In this document: in pieces, positions 19,937 to 56,778 of the stretch
Numbering within the stretch: position 1 is the first letter of the stretch
Layout of the letters: each line of letters opens with the position of its first letter
Origin: Candidatus Eisenbacteria bacterium
Lineage (GTDB): Bacteria > Orphanbacterota > Orphanbacteria > Orphanbacterales > Orphanbacteraceae
Assembly (NCBI GenBank): GCA_016930695.1
Contig: JAFGGD010000037.1
Coordinates: 1-64,000, forward strand
Reading direction: 5' to 3'
Length of the DNA stretch: 64,000 nt
The notes under the pieces: generated by a model
The model's database searches: none
Told to the model about the DNA's origin: nothing
What the model saw: only the letters and a program-made list of their open reading frames with translations
Made by a program: the position numbers and the translations under genes

Positions 19937-19966
19937 ACAAACATGTTTTTTCCGGGAGGGATCGTG

Positions 19967-20854
19967 ATGAACGCGGAAAAGGGAACGTTGCGGCTCAAGA
20001 CGGGCCTCGCCGAGATGCTGAAGGGCGGGGTCATCATGGACGTCACCGACGCGGAGCAGGCGAAGATCGCCGAGGACGCCGGTGCGGTGGCGGTGATGGC
20101 GCTGGAGCGGGTGCCCGCGGACATCCGCCGCGACGGCGGCGTGGCGCGGATGGCGGACCCGCGGAAGATCCGGGAGATCCAGGAGGCGGTTTCCATCCCG
20201 GTGATGGCGAAGGCGCGGATCGGCCATTTCGCGGAGGCGCAGATCCTGCAGTCGCTCGGCGTGGATTTCATCGACGAGAGCGAGGTGCTCACGCCGGCGG
20301 ACGAGAAGCACCACATCGAGAAACACGCCTTCGATATTCCCTTCGTGTGCGGCGCCCGAAACCTGGGCGAGGCGCTTCGCCGGATCGCCGAAGGGGCGGC
20401 GATGATCCGCACCAAGGGCGAGGCCGGATCGGGAGACATCATCGAGGCGGTGCGCCACATCCGCGCCGTGGTGGGCGGGATCCGTCGCCTCACCACGCTC
20501 GGTGAAGATGAGATGATGGCGGAGGCGAAAGAGCTGGGCGCCCCCTACGAGCTGGTCCGCATGGTCGCCCGCGAGGGGAAGCTCCCCGTGCCCAATTTCT
20601 CGGCCGGCGGCATCGCCACTCCCGCCGACGCGTCGCTGGTGATGCAGCTGGGCGCCGAGGCGGTTTTCGTCGGCTCGGGAATCTTCAAGTCGGAAGATCC
20701 GGCGCCTCGCGCCCGCGCGATCGTGCGCGCCGTCACCCACTACCTGGATCCCAAGATCCTAGCCGAGGTTTCCGAAGGGCTCGGTGATCCGATGCGGGGG
20801 ATGGAGACGGCGAAGATGGACCCGGCGGACATGTTGCAGACGCGGGGCTGGTAG
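19967..20854 (+). CDS. pdxS: Pyridoxal 5'-phosphate synthase lyase subunit PdxS
   Basis: A 295-residue TIM barrel that makes PLP from ribose 5-phosphate, glyceraldehyde 3-phosphate and ammonia delivered by PdxT. D25 in [13 protein letters not shown]82 in [12 protein letters not shown], and K150 in [11 protein letters not shown] match the catalytic residues of the family. Length equals the usual 290-295 residues from ATG 19967, which has GGGAGG seven bases upstream; an earlier ATG at 19943 is therefore not preferred. It belongs to the cluster pdxR-pdxS-pdxT and is separated from pdxT by a 179-bp palindrome. Confidence 0.96.
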
Positions 20855-21033
20855 CGTTCCTCGGGTCGGAAGGGATTCTACTGCGGCTCGGGATCACGGC
20901 CGGGATGCTCTTCTTCCGTCGCCGCCTTCCTCGACGTAGCTAGGGCTACGCCTCCGGGAGACGGCTCGTCCAGACGAGCATCCCGGCTCGTTCCCCGGAG
21001 CCTCGCAACGAATCCCTCCCGACCCGAGGAACG
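20855..21033. repeat. 179-bp self-complementary element A, between pdxS and pdxT
   Basis: The outer arms 20855-20878 and 21010-21033 are complementary at 23 of 24 positions, with tips CGTTC and GAACG. Further inside, CCGGGATGCTC pairs with GAGCATCCCGG. The centre holds CGTAGC-TAGG-GCTACG (20935-20950) within TTCCTC...TCCGGGA...CGGCTCGTCC. Element B at 56105-56285 shares the tips, a TACTGCG block after the left arm and this core, but has quite different arms that again pair with each other. It starts at the first base after the pdxS stop codon, so the pdx transcript must carry a very stable RNA hairpin here unless transcription ends. Confidence 0.9.
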
Positions 21034-55755: not shown

Positions 55756-56104
55756 CTGAACATTCTCCTCGACCGGTTGAGGGAACGAAGCATCTTAATC
55801 TTAAGTATAGTCGTTTTGGCTGTCCGGGGCGGAGCCCCTTTTTCATTTGACAACCCCTTGCGCCGTTTATACTTTCGGAATGGATTCACTGCGGTCGGAG
55901 TCAGGGTTGCAACGACCGCGTCGATTCGGGAGCTGAATTGCTTCCTCGTTTCACAGCCGCGTCTCCCACCGGCGGACGGTTCACCCCCCCCTGAATTCCG
56001 CAGCGTGCGTGTGATTCCGAGTTCTATCCCCAACGCTCGTTCTTCTCTGCCCTCTTGAGCGGATGGGGACCGGTGGGCGCGGTCGGCTACCGCGTCCACT
56101 TTTT

Positions 56105-56285
56105 CGTTCGGCGATGGGGGGTGGGAGCTACTGCGACGGCGGGCGGCGGGCTGCAAAACCGGTTCTCCTTCGCCGATTTCCTCATCGTAGCTATGGCTAC
56201 GATTCCGGGAATCGGCTCGTCCGAACCGGCTTTTCGCCTCGTCGCCCGCCGTCTCGTATACGCTCCCACCCCCCATCGCCGAACG
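56105..56285. repeat. 181-bp self-complementary element B
   Basis: The outer arms 56105-56128 and 56262-56285 are perfect reverse complements over 24 bases, with tips CGTTC and GAACG. Inside, GACGGCGGGC pairs with GCCCGCCGTC, AAAACCGG-TTC with GAACCGG-CTTTT, GCCGATTTCC with GGGAATCGGC, and ATCGTAGC with GCTACGAT around a three-base loop, so nearly the whole element can fold into one long stem. It shares length, tips, TACTGCG after the left arm and the TTCCTC-CGTAGCTA-GGCTACG-TCCGGGA-CGGCTCGTCC core with element A (20855-21033); the arms differ. No target-site duplication is evident. Confidence 0.92.
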
Positions 56286-56367
56286 ACCTTGGCGGCAACG
56301 GATCTCTCGCCGGGCCGTGAACGGGTTGGGGGAAGTGCTCGCTACGCCCGAAACTCTTGAGGGAGCT

Positions 56368-56500
56368 GGACGGACGGGCAACCCTTCTCGGTATACACGG
56401 TGTTTGGAATCGCTATCGGTATCGATTCATTCCCTTCCCCCACCGGTCTCCCTTCGGGGCACGGTGTGGGGAGAAAGGACGGACGGGTAATCCTTCTCGG
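56368..56500. repeat. 24-bp direct repeats flanking a hairpin
   Basis: GGACGGACGGGCAACCCTTC (from 56368) and GGACGGACGGGTAATCCTTC (from 56477) continue alike through TCGG; start-to-start distance is 109 bases. Between them, CCCCCACCG-type bases (56436-56445) pair with CGGTG-TGGGG (56462-56471). This is part of the repeat cluster near element B. Confidence 0.75.
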
Positions 56501-56611
56501 AGTCCGGGGCGTGCCGCCCCCTGGGTGGGTTCGTGATCGCCACGGAGTTTCCACAAGGGTGCGACCTCGCGCGGCCTTTCCTCACGCACCTCGAGAGGTG
56601 GGGGCCCCCGT

Positions 56612-56778
56612 CCCGCCCCTTCTCCTCGAAGGATCACGCCGCCCGTCCGAGAGGGAGCGGAGAGGATAGCGGGAGATGGAAAAGCGCTGGCGGCCCCGAG
56701 AGGGAGACCGGCGGCGGAAGGGAGTCGCCTCCCGCCCCTTCTCCTCGAAGGATCACGCCGCCCGTCCGAGGAGGACCA
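56612..56778. repeat. Second locus of the 122-bp repeat unit
   Basis: CGCCCCTTCTCCTCGAAGGA at 56614 recurs at 56735, a 121-base period, joined by GGCCCCGAGAGGGAGACCGG at 56692. The same blocks, in the same order and orientation, form the units at 133-350. The sequence between blocks (GCGGAGAGGATAGCGGGAGA) is also shared with the left locus. The array ends about 60 bases before the stop codon of the minus-strand lipoprotein-like gene. Confidence 0.85.

Follow-up and report, generated by a model that had tools for sequence, protein, structure and literature searches.

The two imperfect palindromes of the window (the whole stretch of 64,000 nucleotides analysed here, from Candidatus Eisenbacteria bacterium), referred to below as copies A and B, are best read as old, immobile members of a MITE-like family of about 180–200 bp that carries no transposase. 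This family is probably moved in trans by DDE transposases, with a folded minus strand that would be under selection and with exchangeable arms. It is apparently an undescribed, bacteria-wide family of mobile hairpins of about 200 bases. The proposal of the preliminary description, a mobile or processed structured DNA/RNA family, holds in the sense of a mobile structured family, on the evidence of empty insertion sites and of compensatory changes in the paired arms.

The palindromes of the window and their relatives

Both palindromes (Table 1) read as first described, including the stretches common to A and B: TACTGCG, TTCCTC, CGTAGCTA.GGCTACG, TCCGGGA and CGGCTCGTCC. The reported complementarity of the arms within each copy was also found (23/24 positions in A and every position in B). 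The arms were further claimed to be unrelated between copies. They do differ freely, yet the older copies share a faint consensus (approximately GGATTC just before TACTGCG), which probably reflects descent from one sequence and drift in pairs. RNA folding z-scores are −10.1 for copy A and −16.0 for copy B, with no shuffle as good. The minus strand of copy A is 17.6 kcal/mol more stable than its plus strand; the plus strand, on which the palindromes were originally described, seems to be the complement of the strand with the apparently conserved fold.

Table 1. Coordinates of copies A and B, their parts and the adjoining gene in the window.
Feature	Position	Strand	Remarks
Copy A, imperfect palindrome, 179 bp	20855..21033	-	Older, free-arm subtype (Type I)
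Copy A, P1 outer arm, left	20855..20878		96% complementary to 21010–21033
Copy A, P1 outer arm, right	21010..21033		Partner of 20855..20878
Copy A, apical core, conserved: TCCTCGACGTAGCTAGGGCTACGCCTCCGG	20928..20957		Same pattern recovered across phyla
PdxS-like gene (SOR/SNZ, PF01680)	19943..20854	+	TAG stop (20852–20854) directly adjoins copy A
Copy B, imperfect palindrome, 181 bp	56105..56285	-	Type I; no coding gene end adjoining
Copy B, P1 outer arm, left	56104..56128		100% complementary to right arm
Copy B, P1 outer arm, right	56262..56286		Partner of 56104..56128
Copy B, apical core, conserved: TCCTCATCGTAGCTATGGCTACGATTCCGG	56179..56208		Same pattern recovered across phyla

The genome to which the window belongs (G000; 3.78 Mb in 60 contigs) contains about 20 real copies according to a pattern search with the apical core and 27 according to a covariance model. 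The same model, applied to 40 relatives, recovered 28 copies in G003, 59 in G006 and one in G004; with this first model no copies were found in G001, G002, G005 and 34 other families. Thus, many further copies, of about 180–185 bp, accompany the two of the window. A coincidence of two ordinary inverted repeats, which had been considered at the outset for the case that no more copies existed or that their arms did not pair, does not agree with the 27 copies of G000 and the 92% pairing in 17 of them.

Seventeen copies of G000 align over 160 columns nearly without gaps. RNAalifold gives 56 pairs for these copies, and 45 of them are changed on both sides, which bears out the expectation that the arm columns covary. 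The covariation score is 0.599 versus 0.187 in shuffles that are blind to relatedness (0/500 reach it), and doubly changed cells number 203 versus 57 in shuffles (0/500; 17 copies, kinship uncontrolled). Sliding the 3' partners by 1–3 columns lowers the pairing from 92% to 36–50%.

Two subtypes could be distinguished. Type I comprises most of the G000 copies, A and B included; its arms vary from copy to copy around the faint consensus, and only some copies keep YTAR-CCCGG. Type II, to which most copies of G003 and G006 belong, is a young dispersed repeat; its ends are CTAG-CCTGGATNATGCACGCGTTTCC...GAAAACGCGTGCATAATCCAGG-CTAG, and mirrored arm changes are frequent even here (CCTAGA..TCTAGG; GAGCCCGG..CCGGGCTC). 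In a form of Type II of about 220 nt, the tip contains an extra hairpin about 62 nt long. At the orthologous loci L068/L109 and L095/L144, the short form (157 model positions) is present in one species, and the ~220-nt form, which includes the apical hairpin CAGGGACCCGTGGCGCGCTTGGA..., in the other; the tip seems to be exchangeable too.

Several copies are unusual in their structure or surroundings. The 3' half with its flank is tandemly repeated beside L110 (G003, contig C97; four times), L044 (G000, contig C30), L027 and L031, and the 5' half, not the 3' half, is repeated beside L046, as if replication had slipped at the hairpin. In L103, L104 and L105 (G003), the 5' half is swapped for one identical unrelated sequence; L132 (G006), the ortholog of L104, is intact. 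L181 (G003), opposite L112 (G006), is collapsed, with the arms TTAGCCTGGATCATGCACGCGTCTCCTGC..GCAGGACGCGTG left and the interior gone. L043 (G000, contig C48) lies between a 41-bp duplicate of the 5' portion of tRNA-Pro(CGG), which comes before it, and the complete tRNA-Pro gene, which comes after it. Several Type I copies of G000 are immediately followed on their downstream side by varying pieces of a second dispersed repeat (..ATCGCTATCGGTATCGATTCATTCCCTTCCCCCACCGGTCTCCCT..; window positions 56290–56730; flanks of L026, L032, L036, L037, L040 and L042). About half of the 27 G000 copies are located less than 700 bp from a contig end, such ends making up about 2% of the assembly (contigs C2, C4, C12, C15, C22, C24, C28, C29, C37, C41, C47, C48, C57 and C60). 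The hairpins or the repeats flanking them seem to break the assembly.

Gene ends, target sites and candidate transposase partners

Where a coding gene ends at an element, the stop codon mostly lies within −6 to +2 nt of the edge of the palindrome. Beside tRNA genes the edge is 3–4 nt past the tRNA; seven Type I copies follow tRNAs. According to a stricter gene criterion, a gene ends at the left edge only in 13 Type I and 32 Type II copies, at the right edge only in no Type I and nine Type II copies, and at both edges in two Type II copies. In all Type I copies with an identified gene end, the orientation relative to the gene is the same. G000, G003 and G006, which span two genera, carry orthologous copies at tRNA-Gln(CTG) and likewise at one tRNA-Leu(GAG) site; L029 (G000) and L069 (G003) share the gene that they follow. 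Because of these orthologous sites, Type I is considered to have been inherited in place for a long time.

Only seven sites are common to G003 and G006. A search of G003 with the joined flanks of G006 copies revealed clean empty sites for several of them, of the kind that the preliminary description had proposed to look for in sister genomes; for example, TATTAG directly joined to CCGAGG in G003 corresponds to TATTAG-CCTAGA...TCTAGG-CTAG-CCGAGG in G006. The empty sites and the few common sites demonstrate that the family is mobile. Left flanks ending in TAG were found in 44 of 65 young copies, CTAG being commonest on both sides, and the empty sites fit YTAR targets. Duplication of the target on insertion seems likely, although CTAG, being self-complementary, does not prove it; among 45 copies with a non-palindromic flanking 4-mer, two have it in direct and three in inverted repetition. 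The stop-codon position could be explained by this CTAG-like target, tolerated mainly at stop codons: in GC-rich genomes such sites would survive mainly there, and insertions elsewhere in genes would be lost, leaving copies exactly at gene 3' ends. The origin of the arms from a hairpin of the target was rejected as a general explanation, since a resemblance to small hairpins was seen at the empty sites of L174 (TTAGCCGAGGCTAA) and L172 (CGGGTGTTTCGCCCG) but not generally.

IS1380 insertion sequences are related to piggyBac. The ends of the young subtype (Type II), CCTGGATTATGCACG, are IS1380-like and agree at 13/15 positions with the Nitrospira IS1380 end CCTGCATTATTCACG. The Nitrospira carrier possesses an IS1380 of about 1.7 kb, in which CTAG is followed by CCTGCATTATTCACGA at one end and by CCCGGAAAATTCACGA at the other. 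In an Eisenbacteria genome, one end of the IS1380 is TTAG followed by CCCGCATTTCTCACCA (its other end could not be located), and the hairpin elements of the same genome begin with CTAG followed by CCTGCATTTCTCACCA, nearly the same end. The IS1380 transposase (PF13701) gave no match in G000, G003 and G006, and the full transposase is present in only 2/18 other carriers; the Eisenbacteria genome G042 is among the carriers with a partner. In copies A and B, IS1380-like terminal inverted repeats are absent, the ends being CGTTCCTCGG and CGTTCGGCGA. Elsewhere, the ends are YTAG followed by GAGCCTGTCCGGGTAA (Acidobacteria), CTAG followed by ACCGATTCAAAGTTGAAA (Myxococcota) and AGGATTCGCACAGAAATAACT (Fermentibacteria), perhaps belonging to other kinds of IS. 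An IS1380-like DDE transposase would thus move the element in trans via its ends, and other IS types could perhaps do so in other lineages.

The family shares with IS1380-family MITEs its ends (CC[CT]G[CG]ATTAT.CA[CT]GA), CTAG-like sites, the noncoding and dispersed nature of the copies, empty sites and, in an Eisenbacteria carrier, an IS1380 with a matching end. It differs from them in that the whole element is one hairpin, the inner core is kept across phyla despite other ends, old copies drop the ends yet keep the fold, and no transposase was found in the genome of the window.

The folded strand and the origin of paired changes

A selected RNA helix tolerates G.U but not A.C, whereas a double-stranded or copying process treats both alike. 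When the arms are paired by a scoring that ignores the kind of mismatch, 107 A.C versus 39 G.T mismatches are counted on the plus strand, i.e., 107 G.U on the minus strand, the copies being related (31/11 in Type I, 27/17 in Type II and 49/11 in other phyla). In the inner helices of the plus strand, pyrimidine–pyrimidine mismatches outnumber purine–purine ones 169 to 12 with inherited repeats included and 79 to 11 at unique sites, which corresponds to an excess of purine–purine appositions on the minus strand; the asymmetry at unique sites of the outer arms (24 versus 15) is suggestive only. The minus strand folds better in 105/110 copies (25/27, 50/53 and 30/30; kinship uncontrolled), in 76/80 and 30/30 with DNA folding parameters, and in 14/17 loci of the survey described below, although the shared purine-rich loops alone could set the sign of this energy difference. 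In the cross-phylum alignment, one pair of the minus strand is occupied by GU 13, GC 11, AU 8 and other 1, and another by AU 11, UA 7, GU 5, CG 4, UG 4 and other 2. Compensatory change combined with G.U on one strand, the mark of a structured RNA, is therefore found on the minus strand, with the kinship of the copies partly controlled.

The folded minus strand, as RNA or single-stranded DNA, seems to be selected, judging from these sequence patterns. G.T and G.A are milder mismatches in DNA too, so the mismatch bias agrees with either molecule. The minus strand is antisense to the adjoining gene, and therefore there is no ready transcript for it.

Two causes had been proposed for arms that are matched within a copy and free between copies, selection on the fold and the rewriting of one arm from the other. 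The first is favoured and the second is not, because the mismatches are strand-asymmetric, which strand-neutral copying does not predict. Selection on the folded strand, with template switching perhaps supplying variants, is most likely. Comparison of orthologous copies fits a slow purging of mismatches: in young copies (four G003/G006 pairs) three compensated changes were counted versus 26 other ones, and older copies differ mainly by compensated changes (16 versus 8 in L028/L054).

Alternatively, the copies could be ordinary palindromic MITEs with an unselected fold, their arms matched solely by replication template switching (quasipalindrome correction). Template switching at quasipalindromic hairpins is an established mechanism that was proposed to maintain hairpin stems (PMC8794818), and it accounts for multi-base paired changes of the stem. 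Double changes may arise by it in one step, old copies retain few one-sided changes, and hairpins of this family disturb replication, as seen in the tandem 3' halves (L110, L044, L027 and L031) and the collapsed L181. However, this mechanism predicts neither the strand bias of the mismatches nor conserved internal loops; the loops would be repaired as well, yet across phyla no other parts are conserved as strongly. The mostly uncompensated changes of the young orthologs also disagree with it, and as the sole cause it is unlikely.

The role of a terminator or mRNA 3'-end hairpin of the upstream gene, inherited in place, agrees with edges adjoining stop codons and tRNA 3' ends, with the retention of copies beside tRNA-Gln and tRNA-Leu at unchanged positions across three genomes from two genera, and with the constant orientation of Type I to identified gene ends. 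It is nevertheless quite improbable: helices of the sense (plus) strand have A.C instead of G.U, and this strand folds less well, no T-run was found at the 3' edge of the element, recent insertions and empty sites occur, and the stop-codon position is accounted for by the CTAG-like target. A terminator for the upstream gene was rejected as lying on the wrong strand.

A giant REP/REPIN moved on single-stranded DNA by RAYT (Y1, TnpA_REP) transposases is very improbable, for although Y1_Tnp occurs in exactly the four element-bearing family genomes, is absent in the three without elements and belongs to enzymes that act on one strand, consistent with the strand bias, the loci examined are equipped with distinct short repeats of their own and lack a clear element, Y1 is present in just 11/18 other carriers, the GTAG/CGTC tag is absent at the foot and the ends are IS1380-like. 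RAYT-type Y1 transposases with their own REP-like repeats are located at L224 (G000:C27:972-1298; CGTAACCAGATACCTTTTCC) and L222 (G003:C2; GGTTCTGGTGCCAGG).

Spread across phyla, comparison with known elements and significance

The core motif TCCTC..CGTAGC...GGCTACG..TCCGG recurs exactly in many phyla. A 23-base core has 38 exact matches in 257 Gb, while far fewer than one is expected by chance (an estimate from 4^23, without base composition). These matches come from Eisenbacteria, Fermentibacteria, Saprospirales, Planctomycetota, Proteobacteria, Myxococcota, Acidobacteria and others, two of the 38 being loci of G006 itself (public name Gemmatimonadetes bacterium DeMMO4_6), and most lie inside a long hairpin with similar internal loops and other arms. 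No recurrent neighbour gene was found around 38 copies of other phyla. A 74-position minus-strand model matched 23/386 surveyed genomes at E <= 1e-4, mostly inside a hairpin of ~180–200 nt with unrelated arms. Long hairpins are clearly formed by most of the 17 survey loci outside the family of the window, which were placed by model coordinates; L327 and L331 are weaker.

Plasmids and viral contigs gave no match with the queries used, and Rfam gave none at the gathering score; plant miRNA hairpins, which appear as weak permissive Rfam matches (the best, MIR1437, with 58.6 bits versus a gathering score of 168), were rejected as similar in shape only. In the literature searched, outside which most subscription papers lay, neither the core nor its complement was found to be described. 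The suggestion that the palindromes belong to no known family by sequence is upheld within the scope of these searches.

Correia/NEMIS and ERIC are intergenic palindromic mobile elements of 100–180 bp that fold when transcribed. They keep their sequence including the arms, whereas the present family keeps only loops, tip and pairing, in many phyla. Integron attC sites are imperfect palindromes whose structure is more conserved than their sequence and of which one folded strand is used; in an outline comparison with them, no R/L boxes or cassette arrays were seen here, and the core is unrelated. REP, BIME and REPIN sequences are likewise extragenic palindromes 3' of genes in many copies, possibly with a strand-specific hairpin, but they measure 20–40 bp (or form REPIN pairs), while the elements described here measure 180–200 bp, have free arms and no GTAG or CGTC tag, and are not beside RAYT genes (PMC3733652, PMC3116915).

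In the preferred reading, a mobile family with a selected minus strand, this strand would be copied as RNA or exposed as single-stranded DNA and would form one long hairpin. Some factor could recognise the purine-rich internal loops and the CGUAGC-GCUACG tip, and selection would keep these parts. The helices would need pairing rather than a given sequence, so the arms could change if both sides change, including to suit another transposase. The folded strand would most likely aid or protect the spread of the element itself; a gene-end hairpin is the other candidate role. A more far-reaching and rather improbable reading is that of a new class of mobile structured RNA, a hairpin RNA of 180–200 nt with conserved internal loops that would cross phyla, its outer arms fitted to the available DDE transposase, and that would play a trans-acting role. 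For such a role, recruitment of the transposase or a host factor by the hairpin RNA could be imagined.

Dispersed bacterial palindromes are usually recognised by sequence, and repeat finders easily overlook a family with free arms that is defined by its fold; the present one may also account for assembly breaks at such loci. Since young and old copies could be compared at orthologous sites, the family offers a test bed for paired stem change, whether by selection or by template switching. If the strand bias is real, the family would be a mobile element whose folded single strand is under selection across many phyla, standing between MITEs and non-coding RNAs.
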